Positions 6,805 through 20,618 of a stretch of DNA of 39,011 nt are shown here, piece after piece. The notes beneath the pieces are model-generated. The model made no database searches. It was not told the origin of the DNA and was given only the letters and a program-made list of their open reading frames with translations. Within the stretch, counting starts at the first letter, position 1. Each line of letters opens with the position of its first letter. The stretch lies in NCBI GenBank assembly GCA_016204695.1, contig JACQKD010000011.1, positions 1-39,011 of the forward strand, in the 5' to 3' direction. Position numbers and translations under genes: made by a program. The DNA is from Candidatus Kaiserbacteria bacterium. GTDB taxonomy: Bacteria > Patescibacteriota > Minisyncoccia > Phycocordibacterales > UBA918.

Positions 6805-6841
6805 ATTTCCGGTTTTTGAGTTTTTATTGTATACTATCGGC

Positions 6842-7211
6842 GTACCGGATAGTTGCCTCGTCGTCAATGGCGGGGAGGAAAGTCCGAACACGCCTCGCCG
6901 CGCAAGCGGCGAGAGCAGGGTAGCGGGTAACGCCCGCCTGGGGAAGCCCACGGGATGCGAGCAGAGACGTCCGGAGCGAGAGCGAAGGACATCTCCCGGC
7001 CGACACGGTCGAGAGATGAGCTTTCATGGCGACATGAGAGGTGAAACGGCTAAATTCCTACCCGCGTGCAAGGCCGTGTCTTTTCTGGAGGCATATGCCC
7101 GGAAGAGAAGTGCCGCTTGAGATGTATGGCAACATGCATCCCAGATAAATAGCTATCGTCCCGTACGGACAGCTTCGTCCGTACGGGATACAGAATTCGG
7201 CTTATAGGTAC
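6842..7211 (+). ncRNA. rnpB: RNase P RNA (bacterial type A-like)
   Basis: GGGGAGGAAAGTCCG near 5' end; ACAGAATTCGGCTTATAGG near 3' end; P1 pairing gtacc/ggtac; AGAGGTGAAACGGCTAAATTC. Confidence 0.92.
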
Positions 7212-7224
7212 ATCGAGCGAGCAC

Positions 7225-15420: not shown

Positions 15421-15491
15421 GCGGGATTAGTTTAGTGGCAGAATGCGACCTTCCCAAGGTTGAGGCACCGGTCCGATTCCGGTATCCCGCA
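15421..15491 (+). tRNA. tRNA-Gly (CCC)
   Basis: gcgggat...atcccgc acceptor stem, anticodon loop ttcccaa, T-loop ttccgattccgg-type arm. Confidence 0.92.
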
Positions 15492-15590
15492 CAAAAATAA
15501 GGAGGACAGTGCGGAGCGCTGGACGACTATATTTTTGTAGCGGGATACCGGAATCGGAAACCGGAGGCGGTATACAAGACGAGCGGAACG
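15467..15590 (+). repeat. tRNA-associated element: inverted copy of the tRNA-Gly 3' end plus a conserved 30-mer
   Basis: accggtccgattccggtatcccgcacaaaaata (15467-15499) vs tatttttgtagcgggataccggaatcggaaaccgg (15530-15564). ccggaggcggtatacaagacgagcggaacg at 15561-15590. Confidence 0.8.
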
Positions 15591-15617
15591 CGGAGCGTTA
15601 CGCGACTATACACGCAA

Positions 15618-16724
15618 CTATTCTCCATAAGGCGCCAACTTCCCATCCTTGAATTGATAGGTGAGCAGAGGAACGGAGACAGAGCGGTCTTGATTGAACC
15701 GGAAGCTGTGTACGGCGGTGTTGCCTGTTCTGCCGACGAGCTCTGTCACTATATCTTCCATGCGAAAGTCGCTCTCTTTAAGCAGGTCGAACAGGAGTGT
15801 TGCTGAAGAATGTGCAAGCGCCGCGAGATAGTCGGGCTCGATGCCGTATCGCTCTTCGTACTTGGCGATAAAGGCCGGATCGTACTCGCTTGAGAGAAGC
15901 GCTCCGAAATAAACGCCGGGTGCCTCTGTCCCGAAGATGTCACGCAGTCCGTCGTTGTTCACGTCCGTGCCGATATAGAGGGGGATGTCTTTGCCGAGCG
16001 GAGCATATTGTCGGAGCATGACCGCACCCTCGGGAGCGGCAAACATCGCGAATACGACATCCGGTTTTGTCGCAACCGCCTTCGCGATCTGTGTGCGAAA
16101 GTCTTTTGTCGTTCCGGAGACCACTTTTTCCACGCCGACGATGGTGATTTCGTCCGCGTACTCCTTCAGCAATGTCTCCGCTTGCAAGCCCAGTTCGCTT
16201 TGCTCGGTGAAAAAATACACGTTTTTCCAACTCATCCGTTTCATGAAGTCGACCTCGTGGCGCACTTGCTCCCGAAGCCCCGGGTAGATGCAAAAGAGAA
16301 TCGGGTATTCCGTGAACCGGTCATCGCAAGTCGAGACGGCGATAGCGGCGGCGAGTCCGCTTGTATCGAGCGTAGGTGCCACGGAAAGCGTCTGTGCAGG
16401 ACCAAGTGGGCCGATAATGATATCCGCGTGATCTTGTTTTGTTATCTTTGTGAACGACGTCACTGCGGCTGCCGGTGTGAATCCGCCCGTATCCTCGTAT
16501 ATGAGGCGAATTTTTTCGGAGCTGAAGCCGCTCTCTTCGAAAGCGATGTCAAGCCCGTGTCGGACGTTCTCACCGAGGTCTGCAAGTTCTCCGGAAAGGG
16601 GCATGACGAGGCCGATCTTCACCGGGTCATCGGGCATTTTGTCCGGCGGAGCCATCAACCACCAACCGAATAATGCGACAGCGACTACAACGAGCACGGG
16701 CCAAAAGTATTTTTTATTTTGCAT
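15618..16724 (-). CDS. ABC transporter substrate-binding protein (branched-chain amino acid type, Peripla_BP_6)
   Basis: DPVKIGLVMPLSGELADLGENVRHGLDIAFEESG; VIIGPLGPAQTLSVAP; YIGTDVNNDGLRDIFG. Confidence 0.85.
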   Translation of the reverse strand: MQNKKYFWPVLVVVAVALFGWWLMAPPDKMPDDPVKIGLVMPLSGELADLGENVRHGLDIAFEESGFSSEKIRLIYEDTGGFTPAAAVTSFTKITKQDHADIIIGPLGPAQTLSVAPTLDTSGLAAAIAVSTCDDRFTEYPILFCIYPGLREQVRHEVDFMKRMSWKNVYFFTEQSELGLQAETLLKEYADEITIVGVEKVVSGTTKDFRTQIAKAVATKPDVVFAMFAAPEGAVMLRQYAPLGKDIPLYIGTDVNNDGLRDIFGTEAPGVYFGALLSSEYDPAFIAKYEERYGIEPDYLAALAHSSATLLFDLLKESDFRMEDIVTELVGRTGNTAVHSFRFNQDRSVSVPLLTYQFKDGKLAPYGE

Positions 16725-16785
16725 AGGTTGCTTAATTACGGTACTTCCACTGTCCTCCCCTGAGAAGTTTTCGTCAAAATTTAAT

Positions 16786-16891
16786 TACCAAAGGTGGATA
16801 ATTCGATATAACCGCTTATTTCAAGCCGCACCATTAAATAAATTTCGACGTTCAGAACGTCGTTTATTTGACAGTCACATGACCTTTGGTA
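16786..16891. promoter_or_regulatory. Nested inverted repeats upstream of the TrmB-like gene (possible operator or structured leader)
   Basis: taccaaaggt (16786-16795) ... acctttggta (16882-16891); inner aaataaa-ttt-cgacgttcagaacgtcg-tttattt. Confidence 0.5.
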
Positions 16892-16901
16892 GTGTTGGGT
16901 C

Positions 16902-17660
16902 GTGAATGACACAGCAAAGCAACTCGCCGCCGTATTTCATCTGAGCGCGTACGAAGCGCGTCTTTATATGGCGGCACTTGATGAAATGGACGGTACGGTG
17001 AGCGATCTTGCCGAACGTGCGGCTATCCCGCGGACAGCGGTATATCCGCCGCTAAAGGCGCTTATTGCGAAAGGATTTATCACAGCACTCAAGTCGCACA
17101 GGAAACACACTCGCTATCGTGCGATTGAGCCGAAGTATCTTGAACATATCTTCGAACGACGCCGTGTCGACCTGAAAGATATCATCGGGCGCTTCAGTCA
17201 GGGCATCTCAAACGATTCGGGTGAGATGCGTGTTCAGTATTTTGAAGGGCGCGGCGGCGTGGAGACGGCAGTCGAGATATTTTTAAGTGAAGCAAAGTCA
17301 AAAGTATGGAAAACGTTTGAAAATCCTGCCTATGCCGAGTATTTCTTCGGGTCGCGGTACTTTGAAGACTATGTGGATCGTCGCGTGGCAAAAGGTATAC
17401 GATGCCGCGTCGTTATTCCTTCGCGCGAGCATACCCCGTGGATGAAACAAATCATGGCTGTGGCGGAAGAGAAGTTGCTCGATATTCGCATCGTATCCCC
17501 GGAACTCTATCCTATTGAAGCCACTATTGCAGTTGGCGGAGACTGGATTCTCGCGGTTTCCGTGCAACAAAGGCCGTTTGCAATCATTGTGAAAAATGTT
17601 CCGCTTGCGCGCACTCTGAAGAGCCTCCACGATATGGTGTGGGATCGGTTTGCCGCGTAA
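16902..17660 (+). CDS. TrmB-like helix-turn-helix transcriptional regulator
   Basis: LAAVFHLSAYEARLYMAALDEMDGTVSDLAERAAIPRTAVYPPLKALIAKGFI; PLD-like sensor domain downstream. Confidence 0.82.
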   Translation: MNDTAKQLAAVFHLSAYEARLYMAALDEMDGTVSDLAERAAIPRTAVYPPLKALIAKGFITALKSHRKHTRYRAIEPKYLEHIFERRRVDLKDIIGRFSQGISNDSGEMRVQYFEGRGGVETAVEIFLSEAKSKVWKTFENPAYAEYFFGSRYFEDYVDRRVAKGIRCRVVIPSREHTPWMKQIMAVAEEKLLDIRIVSPELYPIEATIAVGGDWILAVSVQQRPFAIIVKNVPLARTLKSLHDMVWDRFAA

Positions 17661-17738
17661 CTCGATTTTTAAGAAATAAAATATGCCCACTGTCCACATT
17701 CTGCTATACTATAGAACCTTATGAGATAATACATACGC

Positions 17739-17972
17739 ATGAACGTTACTATCTACAGCACGCCAACTTGCCATTTCTGCCATGCCGCAAAAGAGTTTTT
17801 CAAGGAACATAACGTCAAATATGAAGACTTTAATGTTGCCGAAAATATGGAAAAGCGCAAAGAGATGATCGAGATGACGGGACAGATGGGCGTGCCGGTT
17901 ATCAAAATCGGGGATGACATCATTGTTGGTTTTGACGAAGGAAAGATGCGGCAGTTGCTCGGGATTTCGTAG
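17739..17972 (+). CDS. Glutaredoxin-family protein
   Basis: MNVTIYSTPTCHFCHAAKEFF (CxxC), GVPVIKIGDDIIVGFDEGKM. Confidence 0.9.
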   Translation: MNVTIYSTPTCHFCHAAKEFFKEHNVKYEDFNVAENMEKRKEMIEMTGQMGVPVIKIGDDIIVGFDEGKMRQLLGIS

Positions 17973-17997
17973 GTTATTGACAACGATTGTTCGCTCC

Positions 17998-18078
17998 CTG
18001 TATGAAATTTCTGTGAAATTTCATACAGAAGCTTCGCTCGGAGAAATAATGAAAATGTATTTTCATTATCCTCCTTAC
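17998..18078 (+). repeat. Hairpin repeat copy F1 upstream of tRNA-Arg
   Basis: ctgtatgaaattt-ctg..-aaatttcatacag hairpin, then aagcttcgctcggagaaataatgaaaatgtattttcattatcctcc. Similar to 20104-20153. Confidence 0.55.
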
Positions 18079-18080
18079 TT

Positions 18081-18152
18081 GCTCCCGTAGTTCAATGGAT
18101 AGAACGGCCGCGTCCTAAGCGGGTAATGTCAGTTCGATTCTGGCCGGGAGCA
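18081..18152 (+). tRNA. tRNA-Arg (CCT)
   Basis: gctcccg...cgggagc acceptor; anticodon loop gtcctaa; T-arm gttcgattc. Confidence 0.88.
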
Positions 18153-18220
18153 CCGGAAGGGTTTTTGCACAGTGCGCCTGTTTTGTTTGTGCTCGCGGAG
18201 GATATACTTGTCACGTAACT

Positions 18221-18763
18221 ATGGATTTTTTAATTGAGTCCTTCAAACATTGGCCGACGATAGGAGCCTTTGCACCATGTTCGTCCGCCGTTGCGGAGAA
18301 GATGACCAGACCCGTCGATTTCTCTCGTGCGCGGGTGCTTGTTGAATTCGGCGGTGGCACGGGAGCGATCACCAAAACCATCCTTGCTCGGATGCGGCCG
18401 GATGCGGAACTGGTCTCCTTTGAGCTTTTGCCTGCGTTTGTTTCCGCGCTCAAGCGCATACCGGACTCGCGACTGACGGTGGTGCATGATTCGGCCGCAA
18501 ACCTCGGAGCGTATCTTGCCGCGCGAGAAATAGAAAAAGCCGATGCGATTATCTCGACGCTCCCGGTCGGTACCATGAATAAAGCCCTCCGCGCACGCAT
18601 CTTTGAGGAGGTGAAGGGTGCGCTTGGTACGGGCGGTCGGTATGTGCAAATCCAGTATTCACTGCTTTCTTGGAAGGAGATTAAACGAAACTTTCCCGAA
18701 ACGTCGCTCGATTTCACGCCCCGCAACTTTCCTCCGGCGTTTTTCTACATCTGCGAGCGGTGA
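18221..18763 (+). CDS. SAM-dependent methyltransferase (phospholipid N-methyltransferase / rRNA dimethylase-like)
   Basis: VLVEFGGGTGAITKTILARM motif I; MDFLIESFKHWPTIGAFAPCSSAVAEKM as in PmtA-like proteins. Confidence 0.75.
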   Translation: MDFLIESFKHWPTIGAFAPCSSAVAEKMTRPVDFSRARVLVEFGGGTGAITKTILARMRPDAELVSFELLPAFVSALKRIPDSRLTVVHDSAANLGAYLAAREIEKADAIISTLPVGTMNKALRARIFEEVKGALGTGGRYVQIQYSLLSWKEIKRNFPETSLDFTPRNFPPAFFYICER

Positions 18764-18775
18764 GCGATAGACAGG

Positions 18776-19639
18776 TCAGTGTGCGCCGGTGCGGAGATAG
18801 TCGGCAAACATCCCGATAACTTTTTTAGTGGTTGCGCCGACGAGGCCGTCTGCGATGGTGTTGTCTCCGACTTGCACTACCGGCACGACGTCTTTGAAAC
18901 TTGAAGTGAGAAACGCCTCGTCGGCGCGCAAGAGTTCGTCAAGCGTATACGCTCGTTCGTCTACCGTGAGCCCCGCCGCGCGGGCGAGTTCGATGACGAC
19001 ATTCCTCGTCACTCCTTTGAGGATGTTGTCCGCCGCGGTCACGAGCGTGCCGTCTTTGACCATAAAAAAATTGCTCGTCGCGCACTCAAGCACGTTTCCG
19101 TTCCATGTGTACAGGATTTCAAGCGTGCCCGCCTCTTTCATCGGTTTTTGCAAAAGGGCGGTGGTGATGTAGTTGGTGGTCTTGTACTCGGGGTACTGGC
19201 GCAGGTGCTCATGTACGATGACACGCGCACCATCGGTGTAGTATGTCGGTTCAAGCGGTTTCCATTCTTCAAGAAAAATATAAAAAGTCGGCGTCTCGGG
19301 ATCGAAGTCAATGCCACCGAGCGCTTGCCCGCCGGTGATGATGCATTTCACATTGAGCCGCGGCATCTCTCCGCCGTCCGGCATGCGATCGGATATATTT
19401 TTCTCGACAAGATCAAAAATGATATCTCGGATTTCTTTGTCGGTGTGCGGGATCGTGATGCGCAAAAAGTCGGCGGATTTCTTAAAACGGGCGATATGAT
19501 CTTCCCACCGGAAGATCGTGCTGTTTACGAGAGCCATCGCTTCATAGATGCCGTATCCTCGCAGGAGTCCGATGTCGAGCACGCTGACCTTCGCCTCGTC
19601 TTCGGGGAGGATCCGGCCGTTGAGATAGCAATAACGCAT
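18776..19639 (-). CDS. Class IV aminotransferase (branched-chain / D-amino acid aminotransferase-like)
   Basis: VSVLDIGLLRGYGIYEAM; EILYTWNGNVLECATSNFFMVKDGTLVTAADNILKGVTRNVVIELA. Confidence 0.9.
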   Translation of the reverse strand: MRYCYLNGRILPEDEAKVSVLDIGLLRGYGIYEAMALVNSTIFRWEDHIARFKKSADFLRITIPHTDKEIRDIIFDLVEKNISDRMPDGGEMPRLNVKCIITGGQALGGIDFDPETPTFYIFLEEWKPLEPTYYTDGARVIVHEHLRQYPEYKTTNYITTALLQKPMKEAGTLEILYTWNGNVLECATSNFFMVKDGTLVTAADNILKGVTRNVVIELARAAGLTVDERAYTLDELLRADEAFLTSSFKDVVPVVQVGDNTIADGLVGATTKKVIGMFADYLRTGAH

Positions 19640-19726
19640 CGGACCATGATAACAGAGAGAAAGGAATGCACAACAATCACCTCTTTATCACTCTTTTCGT
19701 GTATATGGGTGGTATACTTGCAGGTA

Positions 19727-19993
19727 ATGCCTTCGGATCGACAAGAAGAAATATTGGCTCTTACGCGGGAAAACAATACACTCCTGAAGAAAATGCATCG
19801 CAATGCCGTGATTGAGATGTGGTTGCGGGTATTGTGGTACGCGCTTATCATCGGCTTGCCATTCCTGCTGTATTTCTATATTCTGGAGCCGTACCTCGGG
19901 ACCATAAAGGATCAGATGGACCAATATGGTGTCGGTGTGGGCGCGTATCCGGGGATCGAGAAACTGGAATCGTTTTTGCGCCGAGGGGAATAA
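19727..19993 (+). CDS. Small single-TM membrane protein (about 88 aa)
   Basis: MPSDRQEEILALTRENNTLLKKMHRNAVIEMWLRVLWYALIIGLPFLLYFYILEPYLGTIKDQMDQYG... Confidence 0.65.
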   Translation: MPSDRQEEILALTRENNTLLKKMHRNAVIEMWLRVLWYALIIGLPFLLYFYILEPYLGTIKDQMDQYGVGVGAYPGIEKLESFLRRGE

Positions 19994-20008
19994 ATTCTTT
20001 TCTTCTCG

Positions 20009-20106
20009 CTTGGGTAAACGAAGTTTGCTTCGACCGCGTTCGGACAAAATGAATGTAAACACTCACTTTGCTCCTCACTTGTCGAAGTAAGCAAATCTTG
20101 CCCAAG
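20009..20106 (+). repeat. Structured repeat family D, copy D1
   Basis: cttgggtaaacgaagtttgcttcgac...gtcgaagtaagcaaatcttgcccaag outer stem. Core tttgcttcgaccgcgttcggacaaaatg..gtaaacactcactttgctcctcacttgtcgaagt matches 36745-36815. Confidence 0.7.
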
Positions 20107-20153
20107 CTTCGCTCAAAGATATAATGCAAGCGAGCTTGCGTTATCCTTCTCAC
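20104..20153 (+). repeat. Hairpin repeat copy F2 upstream of tRNA-Phe
   Basis: caagcttcgctcaaagatataatgcaagcgagcttgcgttatccttctcact; same layout as 18028-18078 with a changed stem. Confidence 0.55.
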
Positions 20154-20155
20154 TC

Positions 20156-20228
20156 GCTTGGGTAGCTCAGTTGGTAGAGCACTTCCCTGAAGAGGAAGGG
20201 GTCGGCGGTTCGAGCCCGCCCCCAAGCA
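20156..20228 (+). tRNA. tRNA-Phe (GAA)
   Basis: gcttggg...cccaagc acceptor; anticodon loop ctgaaga; D-arm gctcagttggtagagc; T-arm ggttcgagccc. Confidence 0.95.
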
Positions 20229-20274
20229 CAGCCGCAAAAAGACCCGTGCGTACGCACGGGTCTTTTTGCGGCTG
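20229..20274. terminator. 46-nt perfect palindrome downstream of tRNA-Phe, probable bidirectional terminator
   Basis: cagccgcaaaaagacccgtgcgtacgcacgggtctttttgcggctg. Confidence 0.8.
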
Positions 20275-20280
20275 GCTCTA

Positions 20281-20328
20281 TGGGGGCGGGCGAGAAGGCC
20301 GGAGGCGGTATACAAGACGAGCGGAACG
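20281..20328 (+). repeat. tRNA-associated element: inverted copy of the tRNA-Phe 3' end plus the same conserved 30-mer as after tRNA-Gly
   Basis: tgggggcgggc (20281-20291) is the reverse complement of gcccgccccca (20214-20224). ccggaggcggtatacaagacgagcggaacg at 20299-20328. Confidence 0.75.
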
Positions 20329-20407
20329 AAGTGGAGCGAGGGCTTGTCGCCGAGGCGTGGTCAAGAGCGCTTATCAGAATGCGAATACTTGGAGCATTAT
20401 GATTAGC

Positions 20408-20536
20408 GACTCGTGACCGAGCCCGCCGAATAAAAACGCGAACAGAATCGTTAGTGACTCGGGCCGAGCCCGCCCGTACTCTCAATGACCACGCACGAAA
20501 AGACTTACGAACTCGTGATCGAGCCCGCCCCCAAGC
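20408..20536 (+). repeat. Array of tRNA-Phe 3'-end-like direct repeats (cgagcccgcc x3, the last with the full cgagcccgcccccaagc)
   Basis: gactcgtgaccgagcccgcc, gactcgggccgagcccgcc, gaactcgtgatcgagcccgcccccaagc. The 17-mer cgagcccgcccccaagc occurs at 20211-20227 and 20520-20536. Confidence 0.7.
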
Positions 20537-20618
20537 CATATTCGCCGACCGGCCAATACTTATGGTAGAGTATCGTTATTGTCATTAACGTACGCACTCG
20601 AACAACCGAGAAAATCAC

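Follow-up and report, generated by a model that had tools for sequence, protein, structure and literature searches.

A dispersed element of approximately 180–200 bp, which encodes no protein, lies directly 3' of tRNA genes in the ultra-small Patescibacteria. It is probably a protein-less, folded, att-like DNA element that was inserted between T55 and C56 of tRNA or tmRNA genes, with arms made from the target. Its anatomy, as read from the contexts of matches in other genomes, is constant in its order and runs from the tRNA 3' tail through a hairpin (H), an inverted copy of the tail and a core (hairpins P2 and P3) to a direct copy of the tail. The direct copy is 19 nt long and starts at C56 of the T-loop, often running exactly from C56 to one base past the discriminator. 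Each site has its own inverted tail, direct tail and base of H, while the core (junction, P2, P3) is the constant part.

Two copies are present in the window, i.e. the whole 39,011 nt stretch of a Candidatus Kaiserbacteria contig that was analysed, and their features are listed in Table 1. The first-pass annotation had described a tRNA-Gly and a tRNA-Phe, each followed by an inverted copy of its own 3' end and by the same 30-mer. Both tRNAs are genuine, and the 30-mer (15561–15590 and 20299–20328) is repeated with 0 mismatches, where 0 such repeats are expected by chance. The inverted copy behind tRNA-Gly exists, at 15533–15558 relative to 15472–15497 (26 nt, 88%), so that the span originally given for it, 15530–15564, was slightly wide; the inverted arm behind tRNA-Phe (20281–20291) was placed correctly and extends to 16 nt at 88%. 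In both window copies the inverted arms form part of a longer hairpin, tail-H-inverted tail.

Table 1. Features of the two element copies in the window.
Feature	Position (nt)	Strand	Evidence
tRNA-Gly(ccc)	15421–15492	+	ARAGORN; Rfam RF00005
tRNA-Gly tail, C56 to discriminator+1 (probable insertion target)	15474–15492		
Hairpin H, Gly copy, AAAAATAAGGAG..CGACTATATTTTT type, common to other genomes	15493–15536	+	
Inverted tRNA-Gly tail and junction GAAA	15537–15560	-	
Truncated core, Gly copy, 5' half of P2 including the 30-mer	15561–15608	+	CM R1 match 15550–15617, E=4.3e-4
tRNA-Phe(gaa), tail 20211–20229	20156–20229	+	ARAGORN; Rfam RF00005
Hairpin H, Phe copy	20230–20277	+	23-bp perfect palindrome 20229–20274, terminator-like
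Inverted tRNA-Phe tail (TGGGGGCGGGC at 20281–20291) and junction GAGAA	20278–20296	-	
Core hairpin P2, Phe copy, containing the 30-mer 20299–20328	20297–20356	+	CM R1 match 20288–20366, 80.6 bits, E=1.6e-20
P3 hairpin GTGGTCAAGAGCGCTTA..TTAGCGACTCGTGAC, Phe copy	20357–20417	+	P3 covariation on the related set A4
Direct tRNA-Phe tail copy CGAGCCCGCC, 3' part decayed	20418–20427	+	
Second element copy, 3' remnant, ending in a third tail copy at 20465	20440–20475	+	
Third element copy, 3' remnant, ending in a fourth, near-full-length tail CGAGCCCGCCCCCAAGCC at 20520	20502–20537	+	

The Gly copy is broken within P2 and has lost P3 and the direct tail copy. The T-loop of this tRNA-Gly is unusual (TCCGATT), and the inverted arm mirrors the oddity, with GGA in place of GAA; it also has an additional A facing the step from position 72 to 73, where many inverted arms elsewhere likewise have a single additional base. 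At tRNA-Phe, one whole copy adjoins the tRNA and is followed by two truncated 3' ends, giving three element ends in a row. Direct tail copies start at 20418, 20465 and 20520, each after an element end resembling TTAGxGACTCGTGAC. Elsewhere in the window, regions resembling each other occur upstream of tRNA-Arg and tRNA-Phe (18030–18080 and 20100–20156), in which AGCTTCGCTC is followed by an ATAATG...CATTAT-like hairpin and then by a CCT(C/T)CT-rich stretch just before the tRNA. The window also contains a class A RNase P RNA gene (6837–7220, 125 bits).

The 30-mer core occurs in five near-exact copies in the 835-kb genome from which the window derives. Loci L001, L002, L004 and L005 lie behind tRNA-Gly, -Phe, -His and -Glu, while L003 is a contig end with arms that fit the tRNA-His tail; in this genome-wide search the 30-mer was not found mostly away from tRNAs. 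A covariance model (CM R1) built on core hairpin P2 gave 13 matches at E<0.01 in the same genome, most of them just behind tRNAs, and when any detectable tail copy is counted, 15 of its 36 tRNAs are occupied (0.6% in the control that used the tails of other tRNAs). Within the order, 192 of 397 genomes contain matches to CM R1, in many cases several; because the model is biased to the common P2, the counts are too low for copies with a different P2 hairpin, such as L231. Searches across the phylum beyond the order returned weak matches only, but at least one of them, L231 in a genome of the same class, represents a complete module that has another P2 and follows tRNA-Ala. Among named genomes, the full core was exclusive to Patescibacteria.

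Modules are always on the same strand as, and 3' of, a tRNA or tmRNA gene. The 100 modules with a same-strand upstream tRNA are distributed over 19 isotypes and 38 anticodons, and in 71 of them the core starts 55–64 nt behind the tRNA end. The tmRNA genes beside smpB appear to bear modules too (L176, L191, L194), judging from 3' ends read by eye. Gln(ttg), Gly, Ser and Leu are frequent hosts among the 100. tRNA-Met is absent despite the 19 other isotypes; about three Met tRNAs per genome would predict several. Several loci have a terminator-like hairpin beyond the second tail copy, seemingly displaced from the tRNA. A second type of tail cassette was also seen, in which the inverted tail is followed by another hairpin and then GTACTGAACCTGTAAGGTTCGA... 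(L042, L144, L148, L005 and others). Its NNCC/GGNN stem covaries by eye, and it can share an array with the main type.

In sequence, the arms correspond to the adjacent tRNA. Across the 100 modules, the mean alignment score between a tRNA's own tail and the inverted region was 12.0, compared with 5.8 after permutation (highest permuted mean in 10,000 permutations, 6.6), and for the direct region the corresponding values were 14.4, 6.0 and 6.9. No copies were found with arms unrelated to the adjacent tRNA. Where the tRNA tail and the direct copy are discordant, the inverted arm sides with the tRNA tail at almost all positions; the downstream direct copy decays freely.

Dispersal of the element is well supported. 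Multiplication within a genome, with different arms at each site, is observed in G006, which has 11 modules at 11 different tRNAs. The cores at its tRNA-Ala and tRNA-Lys are 97.9% identical over 141 nt, whereas the arms and H differ, each fitting its own tRNA, and core identity stops where the arms differ. Gene conversion could be an alternative source of core similarity between sites. Tandem copies are found at L038 and L251. The sole empty/filled comparison, between rather distant congeners, shows tRNA-Glu(ctc) filled in G243 and the orthologous tRNA empty in G269. Excised or free forms were not observed.

Most modules, at about 200 bp, are gene-free, and where larger inserts occur they separate the tRNA tail from H. 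Among these are a 13-kb prophage-like island at tRNA-Ser (L161), with a large serine recombinase, IetA/IetS and a terminase-like protein, an insert with a serine recombinase alone (L219), and single-gene inserts (L005, L198, L200, L210). HNH-repeat and AbiH-like genes lie nearby at L161. A Gabija pair is located between two near-identical modules (L159:5127–9055; PADLOC: GajA 1.8e-153, GajB 3.5e-184). The upstream tRNA-Ala of that locus reads as interrupted inside the T-arm, possibly from assembly collapse. Because short tail repeats stand at the insert edges, the sequences suggest that in several cases other elements entered pre-existing modules.

Hairpin P2 is 97% paired and shows double changes in 14 of 15 pairs, which was matched by none of 500 shuffles. 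The 11 modules of G006 yield a consensus three-way junction (P1, P2 and P3) of 64 pairs, 33 with double changes, again matched by 0/500 shuffles. P1 consists of the inverted tail paired with the direct tail, closing the junction. When the Phe module of the window was folded as single-stranded DNA (z = -10.8), its inverted arm paired with the tRNA's own tail, and an Ala module (L037) folded without its upstream tail gave the three-way junction (z = -3.8). GCGNAGC is the apical loop found most often; loops of this class form very stable DNA mini-hairpins. G-T pairs make up 18 of 1418 standard pairs in P2 (1.3%), compared with 262 of 3928 in the tRNA stems of the same loci (6.7%; p about 1e-18, with related sequences not independent). 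In P1, mismatches of the G-T and A-C types stand at 33:48, near the neutral expectation from tail composition as worked out by hand. P3 has 6% G-T, a figure that comes from free RNA folding, which favours G-U. Thus the rarity of G-T in P2 favours a conserved fold that acts at the DNA level, an argument that rests mainly on P2 and P1 and is incomplete given P3.

In the reading that we consider probable, the element would insert between T55 and C56 of the T-loop, which is equivalent to duplication of the 19-nt tail. The tRNA would stay whole because the element brings a copy of the tail together with its own hairpin/terminator H. Pairing of the inverted with the direct tail on one strand could, together with P2 and P3, give a three-way junction in which the tRNA tail is offered in duplex form, in the manner of the integron attC and CTXphi att hairpins and their targets. 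The substrate would be this folded single DNA strand, presumably handled by a recombinase or nuclease acting in trans. The arms may be copied from the target, may be exchanged at each new site, or may be brought into line with the tRNA by fold-back (quasi-palindrome) correction. A bolder version, put forward tentatively, is target-programmed insertion: the inverted arm might serve as a DNA guide for the T-arm/acceptor strand, a mobile core being retargeted to any tRNA or tmRNA through arms rewritten from the target, without guide RNA and possibly by a host enzyme.

An element working at the RNA level is rather unlikely. It would be co-transcribed with the tRNA, its inverted arm competing for the T-arm/acceptor strand or pairing with the downstream tail and so switching tRNA maturation; a tRNA strand shared in every case at fixed spacing, the excellent covariation and an inverted arm that tracks the tRNA's own tail all agree with this. 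Yet H, often with a T-run, lies between tRNA and core and would usually terminate the transcript, P2 has few G-U pairs and the direct tail copy further downstream decays freely. A regulator would not be expected to occur in tandem arrays, or to be present in some cases and absent in others, and tRNAs and RNase P RNA were the only Rfam families at cut-off. The first-pass annotation had left the choice between a tRNA-targeting mobile element and a tRNA-processing control structure. The former is supported by the many copies, the own-tRNA arms, the direct tail duplications, the tandem arrays and the empty orthologous site, but the latter is not, given the hairpin, in many cases terminator-like, that stands between tRNA and element and the lack of a G-U excess at paired positions.

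It is quite improbable that each module is simply an attR left by a past prophage or island integrase that used tRNA 3' ends, with an incidental hairpin. Duplicated 19-nt tails are typical of tRNA integration, and some islands do occur at module sites (large serine recombinase, terminase-like protein, IetAS, Gabija), but this does not account for a single core across all isotypes or for an inverted tail copy in every module. Moreover, recombinase families show no association, the gene-bearing inserts lie between tRNA tail and H and several look like later entries into an existing module, and the core was on no phage, plasmid or viral contig searched. The remaining explanation has old, vertically inherited structures at many tRNAs, whose cores were homogenised by ectopic gene conversion and whose inverted arms were corrected as quasi-palindromes. 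In its favour, palindromes are readily corrected by template switching, inverted arms match the tRNA tail in nearly all cases, and the identity of the cores stops where the arms begin to differ. Against this, occupation of tRNAs is sporadic between genomes, an orthologous site is empty, tails are duplicated, some copies stand in tandem, and what look like native terminators lie beyond the second tail copy, which leaves this explanation quite doubtful as well.

Element-rich genomes show no enrichment of tyrosine or serine recombinases, Y1 transposases or TnpB. As a helper, a tyrosine recombinase was rejected: PF00589, in which IntI and Xer are counted together, is present at about one per genome with or without elements, and none was detected in the element-bearing genomes G150 and G306. 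The serine recombinase PF00239, considered as a general helper, occurs in 43 of 65 strongly positive genomes (hand count) versus 281 of 397, and the Y1 transposase PF01797 in 27 of 40 element-rich genomes versus 183 of 297 in the background, with none in the genome of the window. A homing guide of the TnpB/Cas12 or CAST kind, an idea that had come from the look of a scaffold plus 19-nt guide and from different PAM-like bases before the two tails, was discarded with PF07282 over cut-off in 0/40 element-rich genomes. Likewise rejected were a retroviral-type primer-binding site, as the inverted arm has no TGG complement of CCA, and a viral origin, as viral contigs gave only chance exact-pattern matches without the core (e.g. 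L255), and phages and plasmids none.

Compared with known systems, the element would probably work most like integron attC sites or CTXphi att hairpins. Integron attC sites are recombined as folded single strands (PMC6393395, PMC3053210). The element shares with them imperfect inverted arms around a structured spacer and, like integron cassettes, occurs in tandem copies, here sometimes with defence genes nearby. Unlike attC, with its fixed R-box, the element has arms that reproduce the tail of the adjoining tRNA; tRNA and tmRNA genes of any kind are targeted, most copies are gene-free, and it forms a three-way junction with two conserved hairpins. The conserved R-box (RYYYAAC / GTTRRRY) is not at the arms, and no GTTRRRY was seen by eye at arm ends in the invariant columns of set A4. 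In the att site of CTXphi, an inverted pair of target-like arms gives a duplex that mimics the chromosomal target, and the inverted pair of target-like arms of the element is similar. Such single-stranded att hairpins exploit Xer (reviewed in PMC3089051); the arms of the element, in contrast, fit tRNA tails and not dif, there is no phage, and in some element-bearing genomes the single Xer-like gene is undetected.

REP/BIME sequences (RAYT, Y1 HUH) and MITE-like repeats are also short, protein-less, hairpin-forming, dispersed and intergenic. The present element differs from REP/BIME in its strict location at tRNA 3' ends, its target-matching arms and its 19-nt direct copies, and its own genome has no PF01797. 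As in tRNA-integrating islands and satellites, the tRNA 3' end is duplicated (the 19-nt direct repeat) and the tRNA reconstituted. Known tRNA integrases are typically tied to one tRNA each, whereas the present element has a single core behind tRNAs of 19 isotypes, an additional inverted tail copy and no integrase gene; a recombinase gene lies between the repeats only in the larger inserts L161 and L219. The tail element is probably of a new kind, because it lacks at least one defining feature of each compared family and because searches of Rfam, phages, plasmids, viral contigs and the literature gave no match. In Rfam, only tRNAs and RNase P RNA reached the gathering cut-off, with no match to the core, and the core was absent from the phage, plasmid and viral-contig searches. 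Largely open-access journal papers on tRNA repeats and RNA motifs of CPR bacteria, on integron-like cassettes and on palindromic elements contained no description of it.

Few sites receive mobile DNA as commonly as tRNA genes do, and the element looks like an undescribed way for DNA to insert at any of them. If a fixed folded core does take its arms from the tRNA it occupies, target choice would follow a new principle, and a programmable insertion tool might be built on it. The element is widespread in Patescibacteria, a group whose gene transfer is little understood, and such sites also harbour defence systems (Gabija, IetAS).
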